64,000 bases of DNA from Thiohalophilus sp. (GTDB taxonomy: Bacteria; Pseudomonadota; Gammaproteobacteria; UBA6429; Thiohalophilaceae), in contig NZ_JAXHLN010000002.1 of assembly GCF_034522235.1 (NCBI RefSeq), positions 98,896 through 162,895 of the forward strand. Direction: 5' to 3'. A program made the translations under genes and the position numbers. How positions within the stretch are numbered: position 1 is the stretch's first letter; the number at the start of each line of letters is the position of its first letter. This document shows positions 10,045 to 61,486 of the stretch, one piece after another. The notes under the pieces are model-generated. The model saw nothing but the letters and a program-made list of their open reading frames with translations, had not been told where the DNA came from and ran no database searches.

Positions 10045-10050
10045 CGTCAA

Positions 10051-31491: not shown

Positions 31492-31615
31492 TTGCCGGAT
31501 TGAGCTGTAAACCAGTTGTACCCGCCGTACCCGAGAACGCCGCTTGCCGTAGATAACAAGGCGGTCCGGGTGATTGATTTTATTGATTTTTATCGCACCG
31601 GGAGGATCACCCTAC

Positions 31616-35876: not shown

Positions 35877-35980
35877 GAGCGGCGCGAGGAAGCCGTATGC
35901 GGCGTTGTGTCGGTTAAAGCATAAGCTGCAAATTGGACATCAAAAGTTGCAAATGCGGTGGCCATAAGATGCAAAAAAAC

Positions 35981-36018
35981 AACTAATGCCCAATGCGAAC
36001 ATAGGGCATTAGTTTTTT
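35981..36018 (+). terminator. Terminator about 105 bp after nrdJb
   Basis: AACTAATGCCC (35981-35991) and GGGCATTAGTT (36004-36014) pair perfectly, followed by T residues. It marks the end of the GC-rich core block. Confidence 0.85.
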
Positions 36019-36076
36019 AATATTGTAGATAGCTGCATCTACTCCAGTTATTACTTATAGAGGGAATTAAATTAGT

Positions 36077-36137
36077 TTATTCTGCTGTACGATATTTAGC
36101 TTATTATGTTGTACGATATTTAGCTTATTCTGCATAC
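36077..36137. repeat. 24-bp direct repeat at the island boundary
   Basis: Two full units (36077-36100, 36101-36124) share TGTACGATATTTAGCTTAT and differ at three positions; a partial third unit starts TTATTCTGCATAC. Confidence 0.75.
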
Positions 36138-36148
36138 CTGAATTATGA

Positions 36149-36164
36149 CTTTTGTCGACAAAAG
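36149..36164. promoter_or_regulatory. 16-bp perfect palindrome
   Basis: CTTTTGTCGACAAAAG lies about 105 bp before the DUF3800 gene and just after the 24-bp repeats; it could be a regulator site. Confidence 0.35.
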
Positions 36165-36270
36165 GCGGATATATGCTACGAAACCATTTGATAATATATA
36201 AGTGATTGCTGAAATAATATTTTACGGATCAAAGGGATCCAATCAACAACTATTAGATGCTTAATTTATT

Positions 36271-37101
36271 GTGGGAATATTTTTTTCATTCAGCGACGAA
36301 AATGGAGCATATGAATGGTGGCGGAGCAGTAAATTCCTTCGTGCACATCCATGGTATGTTCGTTCAACAGTGTTTTTTAAAGCACTTGAATGGAAACCTC
36401 TAGAAACAAGTTTCAATAATCTCAAAAGTCAATACGATTTGCCTGCCAATAATGAAATAAAATGGTCATTTGCGTGGTCATTAAAAAGCCATAGAAAGAC
36501 TGGCAAACCAATTACCGAAAAAGATAAATATTATTTTCTCAAAAATTACGATCCAGACAAATTAGAAAGATTTCTTGTAGAAGCAGTTGCATTATTAACG
36601 AATATTTCATATTGCAAAGTCATATTCACGGTAACAGATAACAAGATATGTCCAAGAATACAAGAGTCACGTCTTCTACGAATGCATCTTCAAGAGTCAA
36701 TGCAGCGTCTTGAGATGGATATGGAGCAAGATGAAGAGAATTTATGTGTTCCATTCATTGATCCTGTGTCGAGACAAAAGGATAAAACGCTACGTGAAGC
36801 TTATTCTGAACTATATCGTAACGGAGATCTATATAAGCGATATAGTCATATTAAAGATAGCTTAAATATAGAGTATTCACATCATAGTGTTGGTATTCAG
36901 GTAGCGGATTTCCTGGCGGGAGCGTTTGGCTCACTTTTGAATGAGCGCGATTTAGGTAGAGAGGTATACCGTCGGACAATACATGAAATTATACGAAAAA
37001 AAGCCGATGGACAAGTGAGTGGCTATGGTGTACGGGAAGTGCCAGGAAATAAACGAGTTAGAGCGGCTATTGTAGAGTTAATGCAGGGCGCGTACACATA
37101 G
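36271..37101 (+). CDS. DUF3800-family protein
   Basis: 276-aa protein of the DUF3800 family, suspected to adopt an RNase H-like nuclease fold and often found near defence genes. Recognisable parts are FSFSDENGAYEW at the N-terminus (family motif xDEsG) and HHSVGIQVADFLAGAFG near residue 210 (family motif QxADxLAGA). The function is not established. The GTG start at 36271 follows, by 17 bases, an ACTATTAGAT sequence resembling the right end of a cassette site; the same AACAACTATTAG string precedes the gene at 40905. The codon usage and AT-rich DNA differ sharply from nrdJ. The HEPN gene follows 118 bp later in the same direction. Confidence 0.7.
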   Translation: MGIFFSFSDENGAYEWWRSSKFLRAHPWYVRSTVFFKALEWKPLETSFNNLKSQYDLPANNEIKWSFAWSLKSHRKTGKPITEKDKYYFLKNYDPDKLERFLVEAVALLTNISYCKVIFTVTDNKICPRIQESRLLRMHLQESMQRLEMDMEQDEENLCVPFIDPVSRQKDKTLREAYSELYRNGDLYKRYSHIKDSLNIEYSHHSVGIQVADFLAGAFGSLLNERDLGREVYRRTIHEIIRKKADGQVSGYGVREVPGNKRVRAAIVELMQGAYT

Positions 37102-37219
37102 TGCACCTGTGCCCAGAATTCCCGCTCAATTAATATGGATGACGGCTAATAGTGATACGAAAAATTCGTGGTTATCACTAAAGAGATAAGTGTGACTGTG
37201 TTCAGGAGAACAAGAACGA

Positions 37220-38440
37220 ATGCGCTGGGAAGATAATTCAGATCCCTCATTGCCTGCAAGTAAGCTCGAGAACTTAAAAGTTATAAAAGATGGCAAGGTC
37301 TCGTTTGAGGCATTTTTGTCTCAAGAATATATGACAGTGCTAGGGGGAATGGTTGTACTATCTGATGGCATACCAACTGAACATAAGCCGGGTATAGTCA
37401 ATACGGCAATTTTCACTTCAGCTAGGAAAGGTGTGATTACACCTAAATCAATAGCCAAGGAAATTAAAAGGCAAGAGAATTCATATTTAAAAAAGCCATT
37501 AAATACATTTTCACTAGTATCTTCTTTGTCAATTTCACGTTTTGAAACGCTTCCCGCTATCCGGATTAATGGGTGCTCAATAACTTTCTTGCCTGCACTC
37601 CACAAAAAATATGTCATTGAAAGACAAGATATCGAGCGTCGTGCTTCTCAGTGGCTTTATAGGAAACCTCCGGTTAATTATATTAATGTGGTAGCAACAG
37701 TGAAATCTAGGTCAGTGGAAGAGGCGGCTAACCGAGCGTTGGATCAGATCGATCTAATCCGTGGAATATGGAATTTGCGTCATACTAGCTCTATGAGGAT
37801 GTCTTCCGGGAGGATTAAACCTGTAAACACAGTATTACTTGGGCCACTTCATACTATTCATCTTCCGTCTAAAAAGTTAGCTACTGAAACATATTGGTAC
37901 CAACAGAACTATCACGATGAAGTTTCTGCGCTTAGATTAGGAAATAAAAAAGAAAAAACGCTGTATTTCACTAAGAATGTAAGAAAGCGACTAAATGGTC
38001 ATCCTTATAGGTTGATCGTAGAAGAGTCGATCCGGAGATATGCAAGAGCATTGGATTATCCTGATTTGGATGCATCGTTTTTGAAGCTATGGTCTGTGCT
38101 AGAGCTTCTTACAAACACCTTAAAAAGTAGTTATAAAGTAACTATACAGAGAGCATCATTTACCTTTGGTGAAACTTACTTTCATCGGCAGGTGCTCAAT
38201 AACTTGCGTAGTTACAGAAATGCATCAGTTCATAGTGGTTCAGAGCCAACAGGGCAAACAGAGTCCTTTTTGTATCAGCTAAAAAGATACGTTGAGCAGC
38301 TCATTGTTTTTCATTTATTTAGTGGGATTCGCTTTTCTGATATTGCCAGCGCAGCATCATTTTTGGACATGGAGCCAGATGTTAGTATGCTAAGGGAACA
38401 GCGCAAGATGATAAGTGCGGCTATAAAATATAGGTCATAA
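37220..38440 (+). CDS. ApeA-like HEPN-domain protein
   Basis: 406-aa protein with an N-terminal beta-rich region of unknown role and a C-terminal helical domain. It carries FLKLWSVLELLTN and then RNASVH (residues 333-338), the Rx4-6H motif of HEPN RNases. ApeA-type HEPN proteins act in phage defence by cutting RNA; membership here rests on the motif order, not on a search. The ATG is preceded by AGGAG at a long spacing. With the DUF3800 gene it forms a possible two-gene unit. The DNA is AT-rich. Confidence 0.6.
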   Translation: MRWEDNSDPSLPASKLENLKVIKDGKVSFEAFLSQEYMTVLGGMVVLSDGIPTEHKPGIVNTAIFTSARKGVITPKSIAKEIKRQENSYLKKPLNTFSLVSSLSISRFETLPAIRINGCSITFLPALHKKYVIERQDIERRASQWLYRKPPVNYINVVATVKSRSVEEAANRALDQIDLIRGIWNLRHTSSMRMSSGRIKPVNTVLLGPLHTIHLPSKKLATETYWYQQNYHDEVSALRLGNKKEKTLYFTKNVRKRLNGHPYRLIVEESIRRYARALDYPDLDASFLKLWSVLELLTNTLKSSYKVTIQRASFTFGETYFHRQVLNNLRSYRNASVHSGSEPTGQTESFLYQLKRYVEQLIVFHLFSGIRFSDIASAASFLDMEPDVSMLREQRKMISAAIKYRS

Positions 38441-38590
38441 TGAAATAGCAAAACAGATGAACGATAAAAAATATGATGATGAGAAATAGATCGAAAACAT
38501 AGGGGCAGTACGCATATTTTATTATCTAACTCGCGGCAAATTGATAACTGGTTATGCTGTCCCGGATTTTCTCCCATCTTTAAATTATTA

Positions 38591-39890
38591 GGCTCTTCCC
38601 CAATTGTAGTGGGTTTGCTAGGTTAAATCGATGATGGACGAGACGACCTTATATGAAAAGATACTGGGCATCGGCTCACCGTGGTTTGTCAGCGGCATTC
38701 AATTCATCGCGTCGGACAAAACGGTTGAGGTTCACGTTGAGCTAGAAGACGGAGCATCGTTGTCTTGCCCCACCTGCGGTCAATCGGCACCGCGGTATGA
38801 CAAGCGCGCCCGTCGCTGGCGACATCTGGATACCTGCCAATTCAAGACCCAAGTGGTGGCCGACGTCCCCCGCATTCAATGCCCTGAACACGGCGTTCAG
38901 ACGATCGAGGTCCCTTGGGCACAAGATAATTCGCGTTACACGGTCTTGTTTGAGGCCATGGTGATCCGGTTGCTAAAAGAGAGCACCGCCTCATCAGTCA
39001 GCCGGATGATGGGGCTGAGCTGGAATGCTGTGGATGGCATCATGCAGCGAGCCGTGCAACGTGGCCTCTCGCGCCGGGGTAAGCCCGCGCTGGCGCAGCT
39101 GGGCGTGGACGAAGTGGCCTTTCAAAAGCGCCACGAGTACGTGACCGTCGTCCACGATGCCCGCGGGCATGTTCTGCACGTGGCCGAGGATCGCAGCGGC
39201 GCCAGTCTGGGCGGATTCTATGAGGGCTTGACCGCCGCGCAAAAGGCCCAAATACAGAGTATTTCGATGGATATGTGGCCGGCTTACATTCGTGCCACCT
39301 GCGAGCACATTCCCGAGGCCGAACACAAAATCGCCTTCGACAAATTCCACGTCAACCAGCATCTGAACCAGGCGGTCGATATGGTTCGCAAACAAGAGCA
39401 TCGCCAACTGATGAGGCAAGGCGATGAGACATTAAAGGGCACGAAGTATGGTTGGTTGCGTAACTATGACGATCTAAAACGCAACTTGCGCCGCGAGATA
39501 GAGCAACTGGCGCGTGCGGCGAACAAAACAGGGCGAGCGTGGGTCATTAAGGAACACGCCAAGGGCTTGTGGTGCTATATCAAACGCGGCTGGGCCGAGC
39601 GCGCCTGGCAGCAATGGTATCAGTGGGCCATCCGCAGCCGCCTTGAGCCTGTCAAAAAGGTCGCTCGGATGATTAAGCAACACCTGTGGGGCATCATCAA
39701 TGCCATAGTATTGGATGTCACCAATGCCCGGGCGGAGAGTATCAACAGTCAAATCAAGATGCTCAAAGATAAGGCGCGCGGCTTTCGAAATCGGGAGCGA
39801 TTCAAAACCGCCATATTGTTTTACTGCGGTGGGCTGTCGTTAATGCCAGAAAAATACGAAATGGCGACCCACTACAACGGGTGAAGACCC
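38591..39890 (+). mobile_element. ISL3-family insertion sequence, complete
   Basis: 1300-bp element. The inverted ends start GGCTCTTCCCCAATTG at 38591 and, reversed, GGGTCTTCACCCGTTG at 39890; the first 24 bases agree at 20 positions. Flanking 8-bp target duplications AATTATTA (38583-38590 and 39891-39898) are identical, so insertion is recent. Confidence 0.92.
38631..39884 (+). CDS. ISL3-family transposase
   Basis: 417-aa DDE transposase. An N-terminal zinc finger (SCPTCGQSAPRYD and later RIQCPEHG) and an HTH precede the catalytic domain. Acidic residues occur in LGVDEVAFQKRH, SMDMWPAY and the C-terminal NARAESINSQIK. The frame is complete and the GC-rich codon use contrasts with the AT-rich flanks. 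It starts 40 bp inside the left inverted repeat. Confidence 0.93.
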   Translation: MMDETTLYEKILGIGSPWFVSGIQFIASDKTVEVHVELEDGASLSCPTCGQSAPRYDKRARRWRHLDTCQFKTQVVADVPRIQCPEHGVQTIEVPWAQDNSRYTVLFEAMVIRLLKESTASSVSRMMGLSWNAVDGIMQRAVQRGLSRRGKPALAQLGVDEVAFQKRHEYVTVVHDARGHVLHVAEDRSGASLGGFYEGLTAAQKAQIQSISMDMWPAYIRATCEHIPEAEHKIAFDKFHVNQHLNQAVDMVRKQEHRQLMRQGDETLKGTKYGWLRNYDDLKRNLRREIEQLARAANKTGRAWVIKEHAKGLWCYIKRGWAERAWQQWYQWAIRSRLEPVKKVARMIKQHLWGIINAIVLDVTNARAESINSQIKMLKDKARGFRNRERFKTAILFYCGGLSLMPEKYEMATHYNG

Positions 39891-39922
39891 AATTATTATA
39901 ATTTCTTTCAAGGATTGATAAA

Positions 39923-40549
39923 ATGAATAATAGGGAAATAGAAGGCTCTCTTGTTGAAACGCTGAAGAATTCTGATCTGTCTGAAATTACAACGGATACT
40001 AGTGAGTTAGGGTTAGATGAAATCATTGAAGATGGGTTGCTTCAAGATATCCCTGTTGTTTCTACATTAGTAAAGCTAGTCAAGACTGGCGTAAATATTA
40101 GGGACTACTTCTTTGCTAAGAATTTGTTTAAGTTCCTCGCTTCTCTTTCTGAGTTGTCGAGTGAGCAACGCAAGGCAATGGTGGAGCGTTTAGAAGATGA
40201 TGAGGCATATAGGAATAAAGTAGGCGAAAGTCTAATGGTTTTACTAGACCGGATAGATGATATTGGAAAACCTGAGTTAGTCGCAAAGGCATTTAAAGCA
40301 TATTCTTCTGATGCTATTGACGCTGAGCAACTGCAAAGAATAAATTATGCAATTGAAAGGCTTTTGATGGTCGATATTGGAAAACTGGAAGATTTCTCAA
40401 AGATTTCTCGAGGTCATATTTATGATCTTGTTGTGGGACAGAATTTTCTTAATGCAGGATTGGCCTATGTAGGTACAGGGTATGGTGCTGGCGGTACTCA
40501 CCCAAATGATATTTGTAATTTATTTGTCCAGCACATACTAAAAGTATAA
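39923..40549 (+). CDS. Hypothetical cassette-type protein
   Basis: 208-aa protein I do not recognise. It is mostly helical and acidic, with a hydrophobic patch (IPVVSTLVKLVKTG). The C-terminal third ends in a Gly-rich segment (YVGTGYGAGGTHPND). AAGGA lies upstream of the ATG. An attC-like site begins 16 bp after the stop. The ISL3 copy sits in its upstream region, 33 bp before the start codon, and may have changed its expression. Confidence 0.6.
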   Translation: MNNREIEGSLVETLKNSDLSEITTDTSELGLDEIIEDGLLQDIPVVSTLVKLVKTGVNIRDYFFAKNLFKFLASLSELSSEQRKAMVERLEDDEAYRNKVGESLMVLLDRIDDIGKPELVAKAFKAYSSDAIDAEQLQRINYAIERLLMVDIGKLEDFSKISRGHIYDLVVGQNFLNAGLAYVGTGYGAGGTHPNDICNLFVQHILKV

Positions 40550-40564
40550 CAGTAATATTCGAAA

Positions 40565-40643
40565 ATCTAACAACACAATTAATCAGTACATCAAACATTA
40601 TGCGATGCTTCGCGTTTTATGCCTGTTATGCAAACCGTTAAAT
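40565..40643 (+). other. Candidate integron attC site
   Basis: Left core ATCTAAC fits RYYYAAC and right core GTTAAAT fits GTTRRRY, 79 nt apart, with a hairpin-rich centre. Inner-box complementarity is moderate. Confidence 0.45.
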
Positions 40644-40649
40644 GTCCGC

Positions 40650-40904
40650 TTTTGGTCTTTCACCGCAGATTGTAATGATATAGATGTAGGCTAGAATATG
40701 TGTATGGGCTGATATCGACCCAAAGCTGAGGCTTGAAAATAAATACATTTCGTTGAATAGATTTGAACTATAACATTAAGGGGCTAATATTTCTATTAAC
40801 GTAATTCGACATAAACTCTTGACTTCTAATTATTAAGGGGTCCTTATAAAAAATGCTGTTAATGTTATCCAGATCCGGTTAACAACTATTAGGCGAAAAA
40901 TAAT
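40650..40904. other. AT-rich gap with no recognised gene
   Basis: It contains a GTCCGCTTTTGGTC string and the related CGACCCAAAGC (about 40714), a motif also seen at 47134-47144. The AACAACTATTAGGC string just before 40905 matches that before the DUF3800 gene. Confidence 0.35.
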
Positions 40905-41447
40905 ATGGCACATCATCTAAACAAAGATTATCTCAGGCAGGAGGCAGAAAATACAGCCAAGGATATACGTTTTAAAATTGATGAGGTGCATGGCCCTTAC
41001 TGGAAGAGCCGAAATGAAATTTCAAAACTAATAATATCTCTGAGCTCAGCTATTTTGGTTGGAACAATAACATTTTCAGGTTCTTTGCTTACATCTTCAA
41101 CAGGGGCCACACAATGTCCCTCACTCATAATTATTAGTTGGGGTTTTTTATTACTTTCACTTCTTTTTGGGATCGCCTCTATTTGGTTTGATTCTGTTCT
41201 CTTAAGCTTTCACCCCAGGTTTGTTAATTTGGGCCCACAACTTGATCAAAAATTTGAGGAGTTAAACCCGGAGTCGGAAACTTTAGTTAACGACATCCTT
41301 GATGTAGTTGAAGATATATCTAATAAAGCACTTGAACCTGTTGGGGCTGCTGACCAACGTTCGCAATTTTTTACTGTTGCATCTTTAGTAACATTTGGCG
41401 TTGGCATATGTATATTTATCATATTTGGTTCTATACAACTAATTTAA
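40905..41447 (+). CDS. Small membrane protein of unknown function (cassette gene)
   Basis: 180-aa protein with three predicted membrane helices (about 41-62, 74-98, 158-178). A soluble acidic segment (EELNPESETLVNDILDVVED) lies between the second and third. No family is recognised; the layout resembles membrane effectors or sensors of two- and three-helix type. The stop is followed four bases later by the left core of a good attC candidate, and the start lies shortly after another cassette-end-like string. Confidence 0.6.
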   Translation: MAHHLNKDYLRQEAENTAKDIRFKIDEVHGPYWKSRNEISKLIISLSSAILVGTITFSGSLLTSSTGATQCPSLIIISWGFLLLSLLFGIASIWFDSVLLSFHPRFVNLGPQLDQKFEELNPESETLVNDILDVVEDISNKALEPVGAADQRSQFFTVASLVTFGVGICIFIIFGSIQLI

Positions 41448-41450
41448 TGT

Positions 41451-41520
41451 GTCTAACAAAGCGTTCGTGTAGGACGCTTCGCAGCGTTGCAGCTTTCTCT
41501 CTACTGCTTAAAAGTTAGCT
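41451..41520 (+). other. Integron attC-like site
   Basis: GTCTAAC left core, AAAGCGTTCGTGTAGGACGC inner left box, and a right half ending CTGCTTAAAAGTTAGCT. Total 70 nt with imperfect dyad symmetry, as in Vibrio/Shewanella-type attC. Confidence 0.68.
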
Positions 41521-41543
41521 GTTGAATAATTAGGGTTTTATCT

Positions 41544-42062
41544 ATGTACCGAGAAATATATGAGTATAAGGCTGATGGGTATATTGAAATAGAAAATACT
41601 TCATGTATTGGAGGAGTGGTTCTATATAACTCCAAAAAGAATAAAGTTGTGAAATCTGGTGAGGACGCAGCCTATGACAAGTTCGTAACATTCGTACAAA
41701 GCCAAGTAACTCAAGTTCCTGGATTTCCCTTAATATTTAACCATACGAAACCAGAAGGAGAATTCTCCTTTGATAATAACAAAGCATACACAATTACTGA
41801 GCTAGAATATTTAGAACCACTAAGCGATAAGGAGGGTGATGAGTTTGTTGTTTGGTTTAAAAGTGTAATTGACAAATTGAAGGAGGGTGGTGACTTTTCT
41901 GCAATCACTGATGATCCTTTTGGGTTGCTAAATGAGTTAAATCTTCTCCGTCAATATGCTGTGGGAAATAATATAGGGCTTGATTTAAACAAGAGTTCGA
42001 ATGTTATGGTAAGATCCTATAAAGGAATAAAACAGTATGTATTTACCGATCCATATGGGTGA
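41544..42062 (+). CDS. Hypothetical cassette protein
   Basis: 172-aa protein, not recognised. Probably cytoplasmic; alternating short strands (YIEIENTSCIGGVVLYN) and acidic helices. It starts 24 bp after the attC-like site at 41451-41520, the normal position for a cassette gene. A weak cassette-end candidate (CACCTAAG ... GTTAAAT, about 42066-42130) follows. Confidence 0.6.
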   Translation: MYREIYEYKADGYIEIENTSCIGGVVLYNSKKNKVVKSGEDAAYDKFVTFVQSQVTQVPGFPLIFNHTKPEGEFSFDNNKAYTITELEYLEPLSDKEGDEFVVWFKSVIDKLKEGGDFSAITDDPFGLLNELNLLRQYAVGNNIGLDLNKSSNVMVRSYKGIKQYVFTDPYG

Positions 42063-42291
42063 ATCACCTAAGTAGCATATTTTGTTCGTTTTCTATCGCT
42101 CGCTTATCCGTACGTGTTTAATGTTAAATTCCCGCTTCTGACCTAAATCTGTCCCTCACACATTCTCGCCACGATTTCTTTATGTACTCTTTCATGACAG
42201 TTTTCTAATTCTTACAGTCGTAATCGTCGCTCTACCTATTAGGTCTTCTGATGACTTAGGCGGAACTTTTAGTTTTGGTCAATTAAGAAGG

Positions 42292-45200
42292 TCAGGGTTC
42301 ATTGGGCGGCCAACATTGGCCAGATCCAAGATCGGGGTGACGTGGTTCGTCCGTCGGCCTGCCATGATCCAATCGCCATTCCTCGATTCGACCGAGAAGC
42401 ATGAAGGCTGACTTCCACCGTTTCTCGTCCTCCATCCCCATTCTGAACAACTTCACGCGTATTTCGTTCGATGCCCGTGCGTGTTGTGTGAAGGCGTTGG
42501 AGTTTTGTCCATAGGGTCGGTGCTCTATAAAAGTACTTTCGAGTTGGTCCCAGATGCCTTGGGGGACCGGCGAGGGCTTAGCATCATCGATAAGGTTCAG
42601 ATTTGCTGTGAGGGCTTCTGGCGTTCCGAGCCAGCCCAGTACTTTCGAGAGCACGTGCCGATTGAGTTCAGGCAAGTCGCGATCGCACAAATTCCGCAAC
42701 CGTTCGGACACTTCTGGCTTATGCAGGGCCAGTTCCCCGAGCCGCGCGACCAGCAGGTCTTCACGGTGAAGACGGTGCATCAGTGCGATGCCGCGGGTAT
42801 CCGGATCGACGAAACCTACGAGTAGCTCATGTGTGCCTGGGGTGTCGAGTGAAGCGAAAGCATTTATGAAATTATCCTCACATTGCTCGAACGTCGGTGC
42901 ATCAGACGCGAGCTTGTATAGGAGATCAATTGCGGCATCAGCACGGCTCTCACCAAGAGCGGTGACAAGCTCACGCAAATCATACCCCGGGAATTGGTAT
43001 CTGCCGAAAACATCGCGCATCTTATCGATCCCGGCCGCGGGATTGTCGACGTACGGGCAGAGCGTCAGAATCCGGCGCAGAAGGTGCCTATCTGAGCCGT
43101 GTATCCAATTCCCCGATTGCTCAATGATGGTATCGACGAGGGCGAATACAGTGGTCGAGGGCAAGACGACACCCGCCATTAACAGGCGCTCTAAGGCGTC
43201 GAGACAGGTGTATTGGTCCCATTGTCCGGGCATGGCAATCACGTCAAGCACCGTTGACGCGGAAGCGTGGCCGTCAATTGCGGCAAGTGCCTTTGCGAGC
43301 TCTTTTAGTCCGGCACCGGGTTTCCCGTCTTGATTCTGTTCTCGCAGGCGCTTGATCTCGGTATCAATTGCGGCGGCGAACCGTGTGCGACGCTGGTCAT
43401 CGCCGTGTGGTGGAGTGCTACCCTCGCGTGCGGCCCACATAAGGTCGTAACGGAACGTCCGGTCGAAGGAACGCTCCGATTTGGGCACGAAGTCGCGCGC
43501 CATTGCGGCGGCCACCTCGGAGCGGTATTCAGGTTCGGGAAGCAGGTCAATAAGCACCTTCTCGGCATCGGCCGCGTTAAGATGCATGACAGCGGTGATG
43601 TGCCAGTCGGCGTAGCTCATGGATCCACCATTGCCGAGAGGTCCATGGTCGCCGGCTGCACGCGCGGCCCTGCCGCGACGTACCCGCTCGATGTCGGCGT
43701 GGGTGAGCCTCACCAGATCCGCCATGTCTTCGGGTTTTCCGACTTGGGCGATCGACGAGGCCAGATTGGCTTTCTCCTCGCCGTTGAAGTCGTCCTGGCG
43801 CAGGACCACATCGACATTACTTATTAGGTAAGCACGAAGGCATTCCTTTAGGTCGTTGTCGGCGATGCGCAGCGGTTCAACGTCGGATCTCGCGACCCTA
43901 CTCAGAAGATCGGCCGCGACTTTGATGTCGAGCGGGTCACCGCTGGTGACGGACGAGAGAATGCCAGCTGCGGCGATATCGTCTGGAAAGTCGCGGAACA
44001 GGACTTCCAGTTGGCGCATTATCTGCCACTCGAGTTCTTGTCGCACGCCAGGCTCTGCATCCACCCTGCTCCTCAGCTCGCGCAGCTTCGCAAATACGTG
44101 TGCCGCAAGATTGGCGTCTGCGTGAGCGGCAATGACTGAAATCATGCCGCCGAAGCGGCCGCTCTTGAGGTCTTCCGTTTCGATACGGTGCAAGTATTTC
44201 TCGATCAGGACGTCTGGAATGGCGGCTGCAAACGACAACCAATACTCGTGCTCGTAGAGGATGCCTTCGGCAACCTGGGCAGCCACCCACTCGCTTGTCC
44301 AGGCAGAATCGATTCGGTGCAGATACTCGAGCGCCGGCTGAATATAGTGCGAACCGAGATTGTGCATGTCGCCGCCGGAAAGCGCCGCCATTGCATCCTT
44401 GACGACTCTGTCCAGACCTGTCTCACCGAGCTCGATCAGATTGAGCGCGGTTCGCAGGCGTGCGGTATGGTCGGTGGTGGTTTCGATGAAATTGTGCATC
44501 GCGGCGATTGCCTTAGGCCTGAGCACCGCTGGCAGTCGGTCGGAGTTCTTGCATGCGATCTCCTCAAATGTCTGTGCATCCATTGACTCGAGGACTCGGG
44601 TCAGCGCGTCGTCAGACCCGGTCCACATAAGGCCGGAGACCGCCGCCTTCTTCACCGCGATACTGTCGTCCTCCATTGCAAAGGCCGCGACCTCGTTATC
44701 AACACGATGATGAAGCAGTTCGGAGACGAAATCCGCTCGTGCCTCCTCGTTCCAGCCGCATACATGCTTACGCCAGCTAGGTCCAAACGATGAGAGCTGG
44801 ATATCCGGCCAGAGCCGGTAAGTGCTTAGTCGCGTTTGCTGGTTTTGTCCCGACAAAAGTGGAACGATGATGTCATTGAAATTCTCAGCGCCAGTCGCGA
44901 GCATAGCGGCGATGGCATACTGCCGAAAGCTACCGTCGTGGACTGCATGGACGGCACGGAAGCGCTCGTCGACGGTAGCTCGAACTTCATTCCATACTGC
45001 TGGGCCGCAAAGCCGCGCGAGCTCTCCGGCGAATACGAGGTCGACGGTGAGTGCCATCGTCACCAGCTTGTTGCCGGCGTTGGTATTTCGTTTGTCGGTT
45101 TCGCCGTCGCCGGTTTGCTCGGCAAACGTCTCGGCGATCATGCGTAGCGGTTCGGCCCATGCCGGATTATTCACGTATTCGGCTGTAAAGTGGCTGGTAG

Positions 45201-46800
45201 CGTCGTGGTAATCGCTCGGTAAATCAAGGAGCCGTGTACGGATGTCGAGTGCAGTGTAGTACTCCTGAAGCTGCTGATGCTCGAATTGAAACGCTGTTTG
45301 CGGATAGTCAATTCGCTCAAGAACGTGATGTGCTGTGAGCGTCGCAAGAACCGCCGGTGCTCCCACAGGCTCGATCTGGCCAAAATCCGAGAGCTCTCGT
45401 ATGATGGTAGCAACCACAGTGCGGGCATCAGCCTCGGGCAATTCCACCGTACCGCGGCGGGTCATCTCAGTTGCAAGGGCTGTCAAGTACTGACTTTGCT
45501 CGCCGAAGATCGGGGTTGTTTGCAGTGCATTTGTGTGTTCGTCTCGTTGTTCTTGCAGATGAAGAACTTGAGCTAGGATACTGATCTTCGTTGAGGGAAT
45601 TTCGGAACCACTTTCAAACAGCGATGCAACTTCCGAGAGGATGAATGGAGTACGGGTCAGCGCGTCGAGCGCTGGATCAGCATCGATGCGGGTGCAGAGT
45701 TCGGCAGATTGCGCACCAAGACGGGTCGTTAGATAGGCTGCCCGCTGCGTGCGCCGAAGGCGCAACAACCTAAGTCGCAATGCGCCTGGAAGAGGCGGCG
45801 TCAAGTGGTGCGTACGGGTTGCGACGATGATACCCGCGCTAGGAAAATCTCGTTCGAGGTCCCGGAGAGCATCATTCGCCTGAGCGGAGTTCGACTCAGC
45901 AATTTCATTCCAACCGTTTAACAAGAAGAGAAAAGGTTCAGTCTGCTGAACCCGCGCGAAATCGGCGGGCGTGAGATTTTCGGCTTGAAACGCAGGCATG
46001 TCCGCAATGAATTCGAGAATTCTTCGATGCGAGGATGTCCATGCTGGAAGCTCGACTATGAACGCTGTTCCGGCGTCGCGCGCGCGTTGTCCAAGCTGGA
46101 TCAGAGTCGTGGTTTTTCCACGACCGGCGGGCCCTTCAAGGACGATTCGGCGGCTCTGCGACAGTGCGTGATCGATCTGCTCTAGTGACAGTACGTCGGC
46201 AGATTCCGCGCCATCTGGGTCAAGTCGAACTGCTGTAAGCTCGATGAGTGGGTGTCCTTTTGTCTTGCCAGCCCAGGACCGCATGACAACGGCAGCAGCG
46301 CGCCTTGTTCTGTCAACGAGGTCTGTGATGTGCGGTTCGACTTCGAAATTAAGGCGAAGAAAGCTCGCATTGAGTGAGGCGTTCTCCGGCAACATCATCT
46401 GTGTGATGATCTCCTCGCGCTCGATGATGTGAAGTTCAAGGCCGTGGGATTTCTGTATTTCATCTTCCCACCGCTTTCGGTCGGCGTTGCCAACTTTGGC
46501 CGAGGTCACGAAGAGGAGAGCCTTCAGGTCAGGAAAGTTCTTCTTAGCGGTCTCTGCATCGTAAGAAATCTTATTCAGCGTTGGTGTGATCGAGGCTGCG
46601 AGTCCCTTGCCAATCCTTTCTGGAGTCAGGGTTGAGGGGGCGTAGGCATCGAGGCCAAGATCCTTCTTGCGCTGGCGAGCAATGAGCTCAGGCCAGCGCT
46701 TCTTGCCAAGGACAACCGCGAGCCCCTGAAAACGCATACCCTCCTCTTGGGAGGCGATTTCATCGAGTGCTTTTTCGATATCGGTTCTCAGAATGGCCAT
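42292..46800 (-). CDS. NACHT/STAND NTPase with nuclease-like N-terminus (Avs/bNACHT-like)
   Basis: 1502-aa protein. Residues 1-145 resemble a PD-(D/E)xK restriction-endonuclease-like domain (FQGLAVVLGKKRWPEL, KDLGLDAYAP, ALLFVTSAK), though a catalytic lysine is not obvious. The NTPase core has Walker A GPAGRGKTT (223-231) and a Walker B-like LFLLNGWNEI (291-300), where most NACHT proteins have hhhhDGhDE, so the first Asp is Asn. The rest (about 480-1480) is helical and repeat-like, suggesting HEAT-type target-sensing repeats. Large NTPases of this plan act in phage defence by recognising viral proteins. It is opposite in strand and far richer in GC than the cassettes on both sides, so it arrived separately. 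Confidence 0.72.
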   Translation of the reverse strand: MAILRTDIEKALDEIASQEEGMRFQGLAVVLGKKRWPELIARQRKKDLGLDAYAPSTLTPERIGKGLAASITPTLNKISYDAETAKKNFPDLKALLFVTSAKVGNADRKRWEDEIQKSHGLELHIIEREEIITQMMLPENASLNASFLRLNFEVEPHITDLVDRTRRAAAVVMRSWAGKTKGHPLIELTAVRLDPDGAESADVLSLEQIDHALSQSRRIVLEGPAGRGKTTTLIQLGQRARDAGTAFIVELPAWTSSHRRILEFIADMPAFQAENLTPADFARVQQTEPFLFLLNGWNEIAESNSAQANDALRDLERDFPSAGIIVATRTHHLTPPLPGALRLRLLRLRRTQRAAYLTTRLGAQSAELCTRIDADPALDALTRTPFILSEVASLFESGSEIPSTKISILAQVLHLQEQRDEHTNALQTTPIFGEQSQYLTALATEMTRRGTVELPEADARTVVATIIRELSDFGQIEPVGAPAVLATLTAHHVLERIDYPQTAFQFEHQQLQEYYTALDIRTRLLDLPSDYHDATSHFTAEYVNNPAWAEPLRMIAETFAEQTGDGETDKRNTNAGNKLVTMALTVDLVFAGELARLCGPAVWNEVRATVDERFRAVHAVHDGSFRQYAIAAMLATGAENFNDIIVPLLSGQNQQTRLSTYRLWPDIQLSSFGPSWRKHVCGWNEEARADFVSELLHHRVDNEVAAFAMEDDSIAVKKAAVSGLMWTGSDDALTRVLESMDAQTFEEIACKNSDRLPAVLRPKAIAAMHNFIETTTDHTARLRTALNLIELGETGLDRVVKDAMAALSGGDMHNLGSHYIQPALEYLHRIDSAWTSEWVAAQVAEGILYEHEYWLSFAAAIPDVLIEKYLHRIETEDLKSGRFGGMISVIAAHADANLAAHVFAKLRELRSRVDAEPGVRQELEWQIMRQLEVLFRDFPDDIAAAGILSSVTSGDPLDIKVAADLLSRVARSDVEPLRIADNDLKECLRAYLISNVDVVLRQDDFNGEEKANLASSIAQVGKPEDMADLVRLTHADIERVRRGRAARAAGDHGPLGNGGSMSYADWHITAVMHLNAADAEKVLIDLLPEPEYRSEVAAAMARDFVPKSERSFDRTFRYDLMWAAREGSTPPHGDDQRRTRFAAAIDTEIKRLREQNQDGKPGAGLKELAKALAAIDGHASASTVLDVIAMPGQWDQYTCLDALERLLMAGVVLPSTTVFALVDTIIEQSGNWIHGSDRHLLRRILTLCPYVDNPAAGIDKMRDVFGRYQFPGYDLRELVTALGESRADAAIDLLYKLASDAPTFEQCEDNFINAFASLDTPGTHELLVGFVDPDTRGIALMHRLHREDLLVARLGELALHKPEVSERLRNLCDRDLPELNRHVLSKVLGWLGTPEALTANLNLIDDAKPSPVPQGIWDQLESTFIEHRPYGQNSNAFTQHARASNEIRVKLFRMGMEDEKRWKSAFMLLGRIEEWRLDHGRPTDEPRHPDLGSGQCWPPNEP

Positions 46801-47338
46801 TTGTATCCAGTGCTGCGTGCCGGAAGAATCCTAGGGAATTCGCGGAATTCCATGGCTACACACAATTTGTAAGACATTGCAGTAGCTATCCTATTGATCT
46901 GCACGAACTTTGTCGACCATGAGGCTGAACAACCAGTGTCGCTCTGATTAACGAGTCAGAAATAGAGCTGAACTGCGTTTGGTGCTATGCAAGCTCGGAG
47001 AAATCGAATATAAGAATTTGGGTATTCACTGATAATTGAATCAATATTGGTATTATCTAGAATATATAAAGTAGACAGTTACTGATAAAGCAGAGTATGT
47101 ATTACTAGAAGAAAATAGGGCGGAAGGTATCGACCCAAAGCCGACATTCAGCAATACAGGATAATGAACGATCCGAGGAAGGATGCGTAACCTGAGATTT
47201 ACGGGTACATAGATCAGAGCGGAGAGAAAAGGCATTGGTGACAAATGGTAATGCAAATAATTCTCTTTTTTGCCGTCCTATTTACTATTCGTGATCCTCA
47301 ATTCATTCGTTATCTTCACAGTGAGAGAGTGATCAAAT
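46801..47338. other. AT-rich gap between the NACHT and OLD genes
   Basis: 538 bases without a recognised gene. It holds a palindrome at 46835-46851 and a CGACCCAAAGC string at 47134-47144 shared with the gap near 40714. Both divergent promoters must lie here. Confidence 0.4.
46835..46851. promoter_or_regulatory. Palindrome in front of the NACHT gene
   Basis: GGAATTC GCG GAATTCC, perfect 7-bp arms, 35 bp upstream of the start codon; operator candidate. Confidence 0.35.
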
Positions 47339-48784
47339 ATGAACAATCCAGAAATTCAGAGAATTAGAGATCAGTTTTCTGGAGGTCTATGGCCCCAGTT
47401 TTTAGAAAGTGTTGAAATCGGAGGGGTTCGTGGTTGGTCTGGTCAATCTATTAATTTCAGGTTCCCGGTTGTAGCAATAGTTGGTGAAAATGGGGCAGGT
47501 AAAAGTACTGTATTAAAGGTAGCAGCATCTGCTTATGATCCTAAGCAGGGTAAAGGGTATTATCCTTCAGATTTCTTTCCCAGCACCCATTGGGACGATG
47601 TAAGTGAGGTTGATCTTGGTTTTAGAATTCGGAGAGGGGATGACACGAAAACTTTTTCAATCCGAAAACCGAGTAAACGATGGAGTTTTCCTGAAAATCG
47701 TTATTCAAGAGATATTTTTTGGTTTGATGTTTCTAGAACCTTACCGCTTGATGCGGCAGCAGGTTACGCTAGAGTTGCAAAGTTAGCTGCGGGAGAAACA
47801 TCTACACAACCACTCTCAGATGAATTTTTAAGATACCTTTCGAATATACTTGGCCGGGACTATTTAAATGCCAGATTTGCTGCGCCTGACATAAATCAAG
47901 ATCGCCCAGTAGGTCTTGTTGAAAGGGAATTTGGTGAAATATCTCAGTTTCATCAAGGTGCTGGAGAAGATACGACTCTTGACTTGATTCATGCAATACA
48001 AAATGTACCTGATCATTCAATGATCATAGTCGATGAAGTAGAGGCATCGTTACATCCTAGAGCTCAAAGAAGACTCGTAAGAGTTTTGTTGCATATTGCG
48101 AGATTGAAAAGAATTCAAGTTATTCTATCAACGCATAGCCCTTTCGTTCTGGAAGAATTGCCACAAGAAGCGAGGGTGATGATAGTTCCTTCTGTCGATG
48201 GGCCAAATATTATTTACGGGGCCAGCGCAGAGTTTTCTCTTAGTAGAATAGATGATGCAATTCACCCAGAACTTTATATATATGTAGAGGACAAAACTGC
48301 TGAGGTTTTATTGAGAGAAATATTTGCGTCACATGAAGAAGGGTCAGATATTCTTCAAAGAATTCATATTAGCTCAGTTGGGCCTGCAAATGTTGTGAGG
48401 ATGATGGGGGAGCTATCCGCAGCTGATAAATTGGCACATCGTTCATTGAGTATTCTAGATGGTGATATGGAGGACGCTCAAGGGTGTATCAAATTGCCTG
48501 GTCAAGATGCTCCTGAGCGCGTTGTTTTTGGCGGCCTACGCGAAAATCAATGGCCAGATCTTGATGCAAGATTTGGAGTAGGGGCTGGTACTCTATTCGA
48601 GTACTTAGAAGACGCAATGCGCCATGAAAATCACCATGACTGGCCGTCTTTGGTAGGCGATAAAATAAGGAAAAGTGCGTCGAGCGTTTGGGAGATCATG
48701 GCAACTGAATGGGCGAAGCAATGTATTTCAGAGCAAGACAGAAATAATATAGTGGATGCTGTCTTGGCCAAATTGGCCCAGTGA
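47339..48784 (+). CDS. OLD-family ATPase with C-terminal Toprim nuclease domain
   Basis: 481-aa protein of the overcoming-lysogenization-defect type. The ABC-like ATPase has Walker A GENGAGKST (49-57), a signature-like GAGEDTTLDL (207-216), Walker B MIIVDEVEAS and the LSTHSPFVL switch. The Toprim domain has Glu317 in YVEDKTAEVLL and Asp374/Asp376 in SILDGDMED, the metal ligands. OLD nucleases act in phage defence and DNA cleavage. No helicase gene (GajB-like) follows; instead a strong attC-like site comes after the stop, so it behaves as a single-gene cassette. Confidence 0.82.
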   Translation: MNNPEIQRIRDQFSGGLWPQFLESVEIGGVRGWSGQSINFRFPVVAIVGENGAGKSTVLKVAASAYDPKQGKGYYPSDFFPSTHWDDVSEVDLGFRIRRGDDTKTFSIRKPSKRWSFPENRYSRDIFWFDVSRTLPLDAAAGYARVAKLAAGETSTQPLSDEFLRYLSNILGRDYLNARFAAPDINQDRPVGLVEREFGEISQFHQGAGEDTTLDLIHAIQNVPDHSMIIVDEVEASLHPRAQRRLVRVLLHIARLKRIQVILSTHSPFVLEELPQEARVMIVPSVDGPNIIYGASAEFSLSRIDDAIHPELYIYVEDKTAEVLLREIFASHEEGSDILQRIHISSVGPANVVRMMGELSAADKLAHRSLSILDGDMEDAQGCIKLPGQDAPERVVFGGLRENQWPDLDARFGVGAGTLFEYLEDAMRHENHHDWPSLVGDKIRKSASSVWEIMATEWAKQCISEQDRNNIVDAVLAKLAQ

Positions 48785-48912
48785 AAGCTATGGAAAATCC
48801 GTGTAGCGGGATCAGGTCTTGCGTTTTGCTTTTCTGACTAAGAAACAGTCACTTACCTGAATACGGAAGGGAAAAAGTTAAAACCTAACCCCGCGAGTCT
48901 GCTAAATAATGC

Positions 48913-48976
48913 GCCTAACAAGGCGCTCGTGTGGGACGCTTTCTTCGCTGCGCGCCCCACAGCTTAAACGTTATGT
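48913..48976 (+). other. Integron attC-like site (best example)
   Basis: GCCTAAC left core and GTTATGT right core. The inner arms TGTGGGACGC and GCGCCCCACA pair at 9 of 10 positions. 64 nt, a typical chromosomal-integron attC length. The next gene starts 18 bp later. Confidence 0.75.
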
Positions 48977-48993
48977 GTAATAAAGGATGAGAT

Positions 48994-49218
48994 ATGGATG
49001 ATAAGAAATATACCAATGAAGAATTAGATAAAATTCTCGAGGATATTGATAATAAGAAATACAAAGGAGACGTGATTCCAGAAAGGATTTTTATTGGGAA
49101 AGACAAGGATGCACTTTCAATTCCAATTGAGAGCGGCACTAAACGAAGAGTCTTTGAGCGTGACAGCGATGGAAACTGGCAAGAAGCTCCACATGCTGGA
49201 GAAAGGCCACCGGCTTAA
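48994..49218 (+). CDS. Small hypothetical cassette protein
   Basis: 74-aa acidic and basic soluble protein (MDDKKYTNEELDKILEDIDN at the start), not recognised. AAAGGATGAG precedes the ATG, and the start is 18 bp from an attC-like site, a normal cassette layout. Confidence 0.6.
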   Translation: MDDKKYTNEELDKILEDIDNKKYKGDVIPERIFIGKDKDALSIPIESGTKRRVFERDSDGNWQEAPHAGERPPA

Positions 49219-49284
49219 GCACATGAGAGATAAGGGGTCGGCAATATTACCTCCTTCCCTCAAGATTCATGAATTTAAAAAGTC

Positions 49285-49347
49285 AATTAACTTCGTTCCT
49301 ACGGAACCAGACGCAGCAAAGCTTCGCTGGTTATTGTTACGTTAAGT
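49285..49347 (+). other. Possible attC site
   Basis: AATTAAC and GTTAAGT cores 63 nt apart; inner complementarity is poor, but the next gene starts 27 bp later as expected. Confidence 0.4.
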
Positions 49348-49373
49348 GTTTTAGAGGTATCTGATGAGGTGAT

Positions 49374-50024
49374 ATGAGAGAAAAAGATGTTAAGCTATAC
49401 ATTAAAAAGTATGCATCCTACATGGAAGAGATCAAAAAGCGCAAAAATGTGGTATCTCGACTTCATAAATCTTATTTGTCCAATCAGTCAATGACTGGCT
49501 ACATTGAAACAGATATTGACACGGTTTACTTGCAACTTAGAAAAATTATCGAATTGGTTATGTTCGCGTGCGTTGTCGCAAATGATTCGGCAGGTTTGAC
49601 TCTAAACAAGACACTGAAAAAAGGGTATGAGATCAAAAAAATCAAAAATGAGCTAAAGCGTTTCAACTCGGATTTTTTTCCCTCACCGATGGCTGAGGGA
49701 GGAATAGATGAGAATGGAATTAGGAAGGTTGACGATCTAGACCCTAGTGATCAGGAGTTTTTGACTGAAGAAGAGCTCTTTAAAGTATACGGAAAGGCGG
49801 GGAAGTTTTTACACTCGCAAAGGGAATACCAGTATGGTAGCCCTGAGGAAAAAATTAAAATACTGAATGAGGGGATTGATTATATTAACAAGCTGGTTGT
49901 GCTTCTTAACCATCATTGGACAAAAATTACAAACGACACATTCTTTGCTGTAGTTATGCAAGACGAGAATGATGGAAAGGTGCATGTCGCTCGGATGGCT
50001 CGGTTTGACGGCGGACACACTTAA
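49374..50024 (+). CDS. Hypothetical cassette protein
   Basis: 216-aa mainly helical protein, not recognised. Features seen: a Lys-rich N-terminus, a central helical hydrophobic segment (LRKIIELVMFACVVAND), and a C-terminal strand-like part ending MARFDGGHT. GAGGTGAT lies directly before the ATG. The stop codon overlaps the left core of an attC candidate. Confidence 0.6.
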   Translation: MREKDVKLYIKKYASYMEEIKKRKNVVSRLHKSYLSNQSMTGYIETDIDTVYLQLRKIIELVMFACVVANDSAGLTLNKTLKKGYEIKKIKNELKRFNSDFFPSPMAEGGIDENGIRKVDDLDPSDQEFLTEEELFKVYGKAGKFLHSQREYQYGSPEEKIKILNEGIDYINKLVVLLNHHWTKITNDTFFAVVMQDENDGKVHVARMARFDGGHT

Positions 50025-50102
50025 CACTCACAGGCAAAGCGACTGCTTTTCCATTGCGGATCGGCCTTCATTCTAAAGCCGCGCGTGTTGTTGGCGTTAT
50101 GT
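50019..50102 (+). other. Possible attC site
   Basis: ACTTAAC and GTTATGT cores 84 nt apart, matching each other at 6 of 7 positions when inverted. The right half ends GGCGTTATGT as in the site at 48913. Confidence 0.45.
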
Positions 50103-50152
50103 AAAAATAAGGTGATTCTCATTAACCAGGAATAATTAGAAAGGTAAGCCGT

Positions 50153-51385
50153 GTGCTATTAAATAAAGAACTTTCCATATCTCTCCTTAAGGCTTGGACT
50201 GCTGACCAAAATCATCCATATAAAGGAAGAGACAAAAGAACCATTCCTTCGCAAGAAGAATTTGAAATCTATTTGGATACGATGTTTCAGGCAACTCTTT
50301 TGAGGGAGGAAGGTGATAGTGTTGCATCTAGTGTGGCTTGGATTTCAAAGGAAGAATTTATTCGTAACGAAATACCAAAGTATCGTCAATCTGAGCTGTG
50401 TTTGTATTTCGAAAATCCACTTCAGTTTACTGCAAAAAATATTGCAAAAATGAGTGGCATCTCAAACGGAAAAACCAGCGTAATATTGGCGCATGGTAAA
50501 AAACCGAATTCACAAATATGGGGTATTTGCTATTTCGAGAGCGGATTAGAAACAATGGGATCCATACCGGCAGGGATAGATTGTTCAAGACATTTTGCCC
50601 CAGATTGCCCAACAATCACGACGTTAGGTGTCGGTTCTCTTGAAGTGTCTAGAGGTAATGGTCGTATTGGAAGAGTGGAAAATGGCGAATTTTTGGAATC
50701 CCATCCTGATATTGTTGCATACGACATGGCGGGAAAGTATCTATTGAGGTTGATAGATATAGAGATAGAAGAAGGATCTAAGATTTATAAAAATTCTCAA
50801 GAAGCAGCAGTAGCATATACATACTTATCATGTATTAAATACCTGGTCGAGATTTTGTCTCAGAGAAAGCAAGGCGCAACAATAATAGTCGTTCCTGATT
50901 GTGAAAATATTAAAGATTTTTACGAAACCTCTTGGGGTGTGACGGGAACGCTTGAAATTGAGCTATTGCAGGAAAATAAGGCCAGGTTGATGAATGAAAA
51001 GGACTTATCTGGCGCTTTATTTAATTTGAAAGTATCTAAGTCTTTGACAAATAGGCTAAGAAACATCGCAGATTTAGCAAAAATGGACGGTGCTGTTTTG
51101 CTTTCATCTGACCTAAATGTTATTGCGTTTGGCTCAAAATTGAAGGCCAAAAAGTGGGAAGGCAAGATAGTAGAAGGGCCAAACGATTTCTCTAACTCCA
51201 GTAGGCCAGTTGATTTTGAGAGATTAGGCACAAGGCATAATTCAGCGCTTAATTTTGTTGGATCGGTTGAAGGGGCCATTGCGTTTGTATCTTCATCTGA
51301 CGGACCTATTAGAGTTATAAGCAAAGATATAGATAAACAAATGGTTTTGTACTGGCCTGACTGTAGAGAGTCTATGTTCAAGTAG
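50153..51385 (+). CDS. DAC-fold (DACNV-like) protein, putative nucleotide-signalling enzyme or sensor
   Basis: 410-aa protein. The C-terminal 100 residues match the diadenylate-cyclase fold: AKMDGAVLLSSDLNVIAFG with the DGA motif at 312-314, followed by RLGTRHNSALNFVGSVEGAI with RHNSA at 361-365 where DisA/CdaA have RHRxA. The missing second Arg could alter nucleotide handling. The region before it is unlike known c-di-AMP synthases and recalls the DACN-type putative sensor proteins proposed to belong to nucleotide-based immune systems. Starts with GTG at 50153 after GAAAGG, 51 bp beyond an attC candidate. Catalysis is unproven. Confidence 0.65.
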   Translation: MLLNKELSISLLKAWTADQNHPYKGRDKRTIPSQEEFEIYLDTMFQATLLREEGDSVASSVAWISKEEFIRNEIPKYRQSELCLYFENPLQFTAKNIAKMSGISNGKTSVILAHGKKPNSQIWGICYFESGLETMGSIPAGIDCSRHFAPDCPTITTLGVGSLEVSRGNGRIGRVENGEFLESHPDIVAYDMAGKYLLRLIDIEIEEGSKIYKNSQEAAVAYTYLSCIKYLVEILSQRKQGATIIVVPDCENIKDFYETSWGVTGTLEIELLQENKARLMNEKDLSGALFNLKVSKSLTNRLRNIADLAKMDGAVLLSSDLNVIAFGSKLKAKKWEGKIVEGPNDFSNSSRPVDFERLGTRHNSALNFVGSVEGAIAFVSSSDGPIRVISKDIDKQMVLYWPDCRESMFK

Positions 51386-51602
51386 GTAAATGGCTGTACA
51401 TGACAATACAATAACTACGCGCCTTCGGCGCTGGACACTCCCGCGTGACACCGATTATATCGACATTGAACGACCGTTTGTGGCCGACAGCTGTCACTAT
51501 TTTAATATATTCAAAATAGAAGCCCAGAAATTATGTAGCTTTCTATTCAATGTAACTAACACATTATCTTTCGTCTTTACTGAGTTTGTTTTTGCATTGA
51601 GA

Positions 51603-52900: not shown

Positions 52901-53148
52901 CATTGAGAAGATTCCAATCAGACTCGCCCACAGGTTCTTTTGGTCTTTTGTATTTCTTAACAGAACCATGTAATTTACCCTGTTTATTATTGCTTCTCAA
53001 AAGTATTTCTCCTGATCGTTTATATTTCTCATTGATTAAAATAAAAACTCCTTTGATATATTAACGTAGCATACGCAATATATGGTTTGTAATTCTGAGC
53101 TCTTATCATGGATTGACTAGTAAAATATTTTGGTGATTCAAATAAATC

Positions 53149-55268: not shown

Positions 55269-55270
55269 GA

Positions 55271-56035: not shown

Positions 56036-56047
56036 GAGCTGTCCTAA

Positions 56048-60474: not shown

Positions 60475-60523
60475 TAATCGTCTTCAAATTGCTAAGTAAA
60501 GAATCAATATTAGGAGTATATCA

Positions 60524-61477: not shown

Positions 61478-61486
61478 GAGGTTAGT

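Follow-up and report, generated by a model that had tools for sequence, protein, structure and literature searches.

The origin of cassette clusters that lack an integrase, and whether such clusters are dead, is an open question. It is raised here by a stretch of 64,000 nucleotides (nt), hereafter the window, which corresponds to C2:98896-162895, that is, part of contig C2 (524,246 bases) in a Thiohalophilus genome (G000; 3.06 Mb in three contigs, 100% complete). Positions without a contig or locus label are those of the window. In this gammaproteobacterial family, copies of the integron attachment site (attI) without an integron integrase gene (intI) head many small arrays. In our judgement, the region at 39.9-50.1 kb of the window is probably a cassette cluster, with neither integrase nor attI of its own, that was stocked by a distant single integrase (IntI) acting in trans, as it would across the family, on scattered attI.

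Recombination sites of the window cluster

An earlier reading of the letters and open reading frames (the sequence-only reading) had placed an integron-like cassette cluster at 36-51.6 kb, with five cassette recombination sites (attC). A strict consensus scan (RYYYAAC...GTTRRRY) overlooked the two sites ranked best in that reading, and trained models were used instead. The first scorer combines a position-specific scoring matrix (PSSM) with arm pairing; it was trained on 16 attC located beside intI (six from the integron of this genome, ten from relatives and none from the window), which themselves score 30.6-42.6. Its null, 100 dinucleotide shuffles of 35877-53100, reached a maximum of 29.8, with 1.03 hits expected per shuffle at ≥22 on both strands. 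The second scorer, R2, is a covariance model built from 24 attC, again with none from the window and including three attC beside intI-less attI (loci L029, L111 and L116). The structure of its alignment (A4) was supplied by hand; a MAFFT alignment of whole attC (A1) misplaced the inner boxes. Four sites were retained, with different degrees of support:

48913-48976, plus strand: strong attC; R2 39.9 bits, E 8.4e-6; PSSM 37.2, above all 100 shuffles
40565-40643, plus strand: attC; R2 31.5 bits, E 5.2e-4; PSSM 22.5, inside the shuffle range
41451-41520 (R2 match 41451-41527), plus strand: borderline attC; R2 20.6 bits, E 0.11; PSSM 23.2, inside the shuffle range
50019-50102, plus strand: weak attC candidate; PSSM 24.2, inside the shuffle range; not among the R2 matches at E≤10

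The fifth proposed site, an attC-like end at 49285-49347 (plus strand), was unsupported, with a PSSM score of 5.2 and no place among the R2 matches at E≤10. The sequence-only reading had ranked 41451 and 48913 as good and 40565 as weaker; 48913 keeps its rank, and the R2 values place 40565 ahead of 41451, which is also one of two exact matches in the genome to a left-half attC pattern.

When 162,895 bases of the contig were searched with R2 at E≤10, 22 matches were obtained, namely 13 in an array to the right of the window, six in the array beside intI and three in the window. Outside these three cassette arrays, no R2 match at E≤10 was found in 163 kb, and within each array the matches keep to one strand. 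Nine of the 22 had no part in the training of R2 (three in the window, one in the intI array and five in the right-hand array). A covariance-model check of the kind proposed for this cluster gives three window matches, two of them significant.

For the sites at 40565, 41451, 48913, 49285 and 50019, the gaps from the preceding stop codon to the attC are 15, 3, 128, 66 and -6 nt, and those from the attC to the next start codon are 261, 23, 17, 26 and 50 nt, respectively. Thus, the reported gene starts 18-51 bp past the sites were recovered at four of the five (the exception being 40565), and the reported gene ends a few bases before the sites do not apply to 48913 and 49285. No R2 attC was found between or after the two genes at 36.3-38.4 kb, so the proposed cluster holds for about 39.9-50.1 kb and these two genes are not counted as cassettes. 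As is required of a cluster of attC sites lacking an integron integrase (CALIN), at least two attC are present (40565-40643 and 48913-48976 at E<0.001, with 41451-41520 at E 0.11) and no integron integrase is nearby; the two significant attC lie 8.3 kb apart, and a distance rule could split the cluster. A complete integron is not formed, as the array has neither an adjacent intI nor an attI at its head. No Rfam family matched the window at the gathering score.

The integrase, its attI and the scattered attI copies

As the sequence-only reading had stated, the window contains no integron integrase gene: the only match to TIGR02249 above the cut-off in G000 (one of nine matches in total) falls outside it, at C2:68980-69915, with 456.4 bits vs a cut-off of 265. 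It lies in a frame of 468 aa (C2:68518-69924; L025:8518-9924), so the genome has a single integron integrase, about 70 kb upstream of the window cluster on the same contig. Six attC on the minus strand lie beyond the 5' end of intI, with attI between intI and the attC; the suggestion to look for intI in the flanks was thus borne out. The N-terminus of this IntI carries about 150 extra residues that resemble a second SAM-like core-binding domain (PF13495 at 21.3 bits when scanned alone, below the cut-off of 27).

The element that we take as the attI of the family is 57 bp long, has two CAGAnTCTG-type boxes and terminates in CACTG|TTAG, with the cassette crossover presumably at G|TT. Its boxes are palindromic, and in some genomes the letters vary while the palindrome is retained (GGCGGCTAGCCGCC in G008; alignment A5); the alignment gives a weak consensus structure. 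A sequence-only model of the element (R1), with intI-less copies in part of its training set, was applied to a family sample of 40 genomes, and an order-level attI search gave the same 40 genomes again. Three of these are referred to below: G038, a relative from the same genus, and G008 and G012, a pair from another genus. Since the scoring covered a part of the first-look candidates (140 per genome), all site counts are lower bounds. Of the 40 family intI matches that pass the cut-off, 17 have the R1 element next to them; in every case it is on the opposite strand, at 540-596 nt from the start of the profile. All 17 of the IntI concerned belong to the 27 (of 40) with a long frame (382-509 aa), and none to the 13 with a short one.

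At E≤1e-4, R1 identified 80 attI sites (counted on one strand each) in 31 of the 40 genomes and in 17 of the 18 genera of the family; 15 of the sites are beside intI and the remaining 65, in 26 genomes, are not. Reverse-strand duplicates were removed from this count by hand, and one included site (G035:C327) prints as 1.0e-4 and is missing from one listing. Eight intI-less attI are present in G000 (C2:172551, C2:175765, C3:525956, C3:527695, C3:766155, C3:829635, C3:1362866 and C3:1459612), and several of them are followed by attC on their own strand. In a class sample searched with stricter filters, 15 of 229 genomes had matches, G000 and G038 among them. An attI pattern was also found in nine stretches from named genomes, eight labelled as metagenome-assembled genomes (MAGs) of Gammaproteobacteria and one as a Thiotrichales MAG. 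G087, a genome of the same class and another family, gave six attI-model rows, or four places after strand duplicates were merged, and scattered attI may therefore extend beyond the family.

The surroundings of attI were analyzed in 57 fetched loci with 59 sites, three of which were known beforehand to adjoin intI. These sites remained from 88 R1 rows after removal of 25 reverse-strand duplicates, three rows of L027 and one partial site (L111:12231). Among attI-attC pairs within 3 kb (R2 E≤1), 56 have the attC downstream on the same strand, two have it upstream on the same strand and none has it on the opposite strand. An attC follows downstream at 26 of the 53 attI without an intI match in the locus. 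In the model-found loci outside training (L161-L200), 41 pairs are downstream vs two upstream, and a downstream attC was found at 17 of 39 intI-less attI, or 15 of 35 where at least 1.4 kb of upstream sequence was available. Comparison of the attI loci revealed conservation up to the G|TT crossover, followed by unrelated genes.

Orthologous attI copies give the most direct view of cassette exchange. The intI-less attI at C3:1362866 in G000 and C2:158430 in G038 are orthologous, with flank pieces about 77-88% identical. Homology runs through the attI to CACTGTTA, breaks there, and returns at GTTACGCAT, an attC crossover end, after which the same small gene follows in both genomes. Between these recombination points lies species-specific sequence of 405 nt in G000 and 483 nt in G038. 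In the other genus, the loci on contig C152 of G008 and contig C186 of G012 show 91% identity along 1484 nt, ending at ACTGTTA, and have nothing in common past it (local score 18, five shuffles giving 18-23). Homology thus ends at G|TT in both orthologous pairs. No trace of intI was found at these swap loci. The presence of different cassettes at orthologous intI-less attI, with breaks at the crossovers, suggests that the sites are likely working docking sites in trans and not only relics.

In G000 and G038, most intI-less attI follow, at about 0.1 kb, a GC-rich, structured repeat some 330 nt long (e.g., L029:7444-7780). G000 has twelve copies of the repeat: an R1 match (E≤0.01) follows eight of them, a partial attI and an attC follow a ninth, and an attC alone follows another. 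At L111:6512-12261 (C3:525-531 kb), the repeat and attI form a unit in tandem, with the third attI partial, and the orthologous locus of G038 has no attI match. The fetched loci of other genera contain only short matches to the repeat (101 nt at 74% in L161 and 24 nt in L174), and the repeat is therefore unnecessary for attI itself. No Rfam family was assigned to the repeat at the gathering score, and neither the repeat nor the array had a match near that score at a relaxed threshold.

Proposed action in trans and its alternatives

The boundaries at the attI copies are explained by the known integron reaction (attC with attI or attC with attC). The only IntI of G000 is its natural agent, which would act in trans. 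We lean slightly towards a distributed integron, in which one IntI lineage with a second core-binding-like N-terminal domain serves a set of attI copied chromosome-wide, in this genus within the structured intergenic repeat, and in which many loci that lack their own integrase acquire and trade cassettes. Binding of the intI-less attI copies of G000 by the single IntI would be expected from the close similarity of the attI sequences and from the lack of a second intI above the cut-off in this genome; the enzyme would then move cassettes between the copies through attC x attI and attC x attC exchange. The window cluster, being without attI, would have arisen in this manner or as the remains of a longer island array that later broke up. 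It may have formed by attC x attC insertion, by capture at a non-classical genomic site (attG), or as a piece severed from a longer array when rearrangements introduced the NACHT and Tn7-like genes listed below.

Several observations weigh against this reading. Two of the five proposed window attC alone reach E<0.01 with R2, and R1 gives no match in the window at E≤0.001. At 27 of the 53 fetched attI without an intI match, no model attC lies within 3 kb, and the weak partial attI at L111:12231, outside the tally, would give one more upstream pair. Two further loci are orthologous between G000 and G038 and have imperfect right-hand boundaries, which is not clean at locus D (C3:1459612 and C2:258611) and is cut by a contig end at locus H (C3:766155 and C11:1944). 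G038 has five attI at E≤1e-4 and no intI above the cut-off, so its attI are not now served from within that genome. Fragments of intI occur in three fetched loci, as broken pieces in L183 and towards contig ends in L171 and L189, where they may be cut genes; hence some intI-less attI result from decay or assembly breaks. Moreover, the relatives are mostly draft genomes.

Part of this evidence would fit a view in which the cluster and the intI-less attI are relics, that is, integrons that lost their integrase and are now inert. CALINs as degraded integrons are the published view (PMC9024848), and the weak attC, the ISL3-family element and the reversed NACHT gene that break the window array, the broken intI beside the attI of L183 and the attI of G038 all agree with it. 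Nevertheless, in G000, tblastn over the fetched flanks detected no intI relic at L029, L111 (two sites), L126, L188 and L027, which cover six of the eight intI-less attI; in L027, the only match was a 58-aa stretch of a separate phage-integrase gene. In addition, what most of the intI-less copies have in common upstream is repeat sequence and not intI sequence, and cassettes differ at orthologous attI. We consider inert relics an unlikely explanation as a whole.

A different route for the window alone is that its cassettes were inserted singly at attG sites and not via attI-headed arrays. The lack of an attI in the window would be expected in this case, attG capture has been described (PMC12901181 and PMC12444791), and off-target attI-like sites are reported to be frequent across genomes (PMC10127599). 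The window, however, contains several attC in series, and the same island harbors a second array that is headed by an attI, which makes single insertions an improbable source of the cluster.

It could also be supposed that the 57-bp element is a mere part of a dispersed intergenic repeat and no recombination site away from intI, as most copies in G000 and G038 directly follow the structured repeat and most repeats of G000 are followed by the element. This is quite doubtful because the element occurs almost throughout the genera of the family, in which the repeat left only short matches in the fetched loci beyond this genus, because conservation ends at G|TT and different genes follow, and because 56 of the 58 attC pairs are downstream on the same strand. 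Finally, chance palindromes in an AT-rich defence island without any integron are very improbable: although three of the five sites fall inside the shuffle range of the first scorer and 49285 fails both scorers, 48913 and 40565 are significant with the independent R2, which is silent outside the arrays, and chance is already refuted for 48913-48976.

The island, its genes and comparison with known systems

The window cluster is one part of a larger island. Homology to G038 and G001 (blastn) ends at 35,875 and that to G038 is picked up again at C2:182,427, short matches (about 100 nt) occurring from C2:178,855 onwards (40 kb compared). The island thus measures about 47.7 kb here vs about 4.7 kb at the same locus of G038, where no attC match was found; G038 was searched for island genes at that locus only. 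The island contains the window array (plus strand), restriction-modification genes, Tn7-like genes and the second array (minus strand). This second array, right of the window at C2:163113-175489 (L027:218-12594), has the 13 R2 matches mentioned above, no intI, and at its head an attI copy (C2:175765-175822). A phage-integrase-family gene (PF00589; L027:2922-3548) lies inside the same array, just right of the window; its profile match at C2:165937 was rejected as IntI (19.8 bits vs the cut-off of 265). The start of this gene recurs in broken form at about 9957-10130.

The genes and elements of the window array and its borders are as follows:

35163..35876, plus strand: TSCPD-domain gene; last gene common to relatives, left edge of the island
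36271..37101, plus strand: DUF3800 gene (PF12686, 40.7 bits); in the island, no attC match around it, not counted as a cassette
37220..38440, plus strand: gene for a 406-aa protein, HEPN-like by motif alone (RX4H-type motifs; RNASVH at residue 333); not counted as a cassette
38591..39890, plus strand: ISL3-family insertion sequence (transposase PF01610, 229.9 bits), before the first supported cassette
39923..40549, plus strand: 208-aa cassette gene; no family above cut-off
40905..41447, plus strand: 180-aa cassette gene; hydrophobic segments by reading, no family above cut-off
41544..42062, plus strand: 172-aa cassette gene; no family above cut-off, no attC match following
42292..46800, minus strand: gene for a 1502-aa NACHT/NCAB2 protein (PF22726, 85 bits; PF05729, 24.4 bits, below the cut-off of 26.7)
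47339..48784, plus strand: gene for a 481-aa AAA ATPase of OLD-like layout (PF13304, 64.4 bits); relative of PADLOC HEC-04
48994..49218, plus strand: 74-aa cassette gene; no family
49374..50024, plus strand: 216-aa gene; no family above cut-off
50153..51385, plus strand: gene for a 410-aa protein with DACNV sensor and DisA-type DAC domains (PF21751, 53.7 bits; PF02457, 36.4 bits)
51659..52867, plus strand: Mutator/IS256-type transposase gene (PF00872, 328.4 bits), directly right of the array
57762..63436, plus strand: TnsA, TnsB-like, TniB/TnsC and TniQ genes in that order (Tn7-like), between the two arrays of the island

The ISL3 element is flanked by an 8-bp target duplication, AATTATTA (38583-38590 and 39891-39898). 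The plus-strand genes are AT-rich, as described earlier (36.5-40.6% GC); the exception is the reversed NACHT gene between the cassettes, with 56.8% GC vs 36-41% in its surroundings. No transposon ends were identified for the Tn7-like element. As a side observation, the sequence AACAACTATTAG occurs at 36245 and 40881, upstream of the DUF3800 gene and the 180-aa cassette gene, and possibly represents worn attC ends. Elsewhere in the window, a restriction-modification cluster is found at 53149-56641 on the minus strand (type II REase-like DUF6996/6997, D12 and N6_N4 methylases, and a LexA-like peptidase-regulator), and a ribonucleotide reductase with a LAGLIDADG intein at 31574-34891.

The domain assignments of the sequence-only reading were confirmed for the DUF3800, AAA/OLD-like and DACNV-DAC proteins. 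That of an ApeA-like HEPN protein was not: the product of 37220..38440 has no family above cut-off in Pfam and none in PADLOC or NCBIfam, which leaves RX4H-type motifs alone, and 166 proteins matched it at E≤0.001, itself included. The AAA ATPase matches PADLOC HEC-04 (PDLC04149) with 209.6 bits over most of the profile (9-407 of 494). In the DACNV-DAC family, 73 of the 84 proteins among the matches listed, itself included, have GTRHN at the position where DisA has RHR. Judging from these domains, the AAA/OLD-like, NACHT and DACNV-DAC products are predicted to be anti-phage, and the window cluster may serve as a defence reservoir, as had been proposed. Integron cassettes have reportedly been described as phage-defence libraries in 2025 (Darracq, Getz, Kieffer); the arrays are alike in carrying defence-type genes, which are known here from domains alone.

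Service of the attI copies by IntI in trans, if real, would distribute integron capacity across the chromosome. Every array would then start with a first cassette placed behind an attI, with possible consequences for expression, and one machinery would fill the defence-like clusters as well. Among open-licence PMC papers, judged from listings, we found none that describes a whole attI dispersed in several copies; such a description may exist elsewhere.

CALINs, single attC sites lacking an integron integrase (SALINs) and the trans mobilisation of CALINs have been described (PMC9024848, PMC12444791, PMC9229058 and PMC9668308). The off-target attI-like sites (PMC10127599) resemble the present case in that an integrase acts elsewhere than at its cognate attI. 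There, inversion on a plasmid takes place at degenerate secondary sites, whereas in the present family it is the complete 57-bp attI that is copied and that stands at the head of cassettes. The Delta-attI gene cassettes of mobile integrons (PMC12901181) likewise place attI pieces in unusual positions, and theirs are functional with IntI1; there, the pieces lie inside cassettes, whereas here a near-complete attI heads arrays at separate chromosomal loci. The Shewanella SALINs (PMC9229058) are similar in that single cassettes are scattered away from intI, and the available part of that paper mentions no attI copy. In the CALINs of Xanthomonas (PMC12444791), intI is at one place, clusters occupy several conserved chromosomal loci and mobilisation in trans is stated; attI copies and a cassette swap at orthologous intI-less attI, as found here, are not mentioned in the part of the paper available. 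IntegronFinder does not detect attI outside class 1 (PMC9024848), and its CALIN calls therefore cannot reveal attI copies. The CALINs reported with it are similar to the loci described here in having genes separated by attC and intI elsewhere in the genome (PMC9024848); here, many such loci own a copy of attI.

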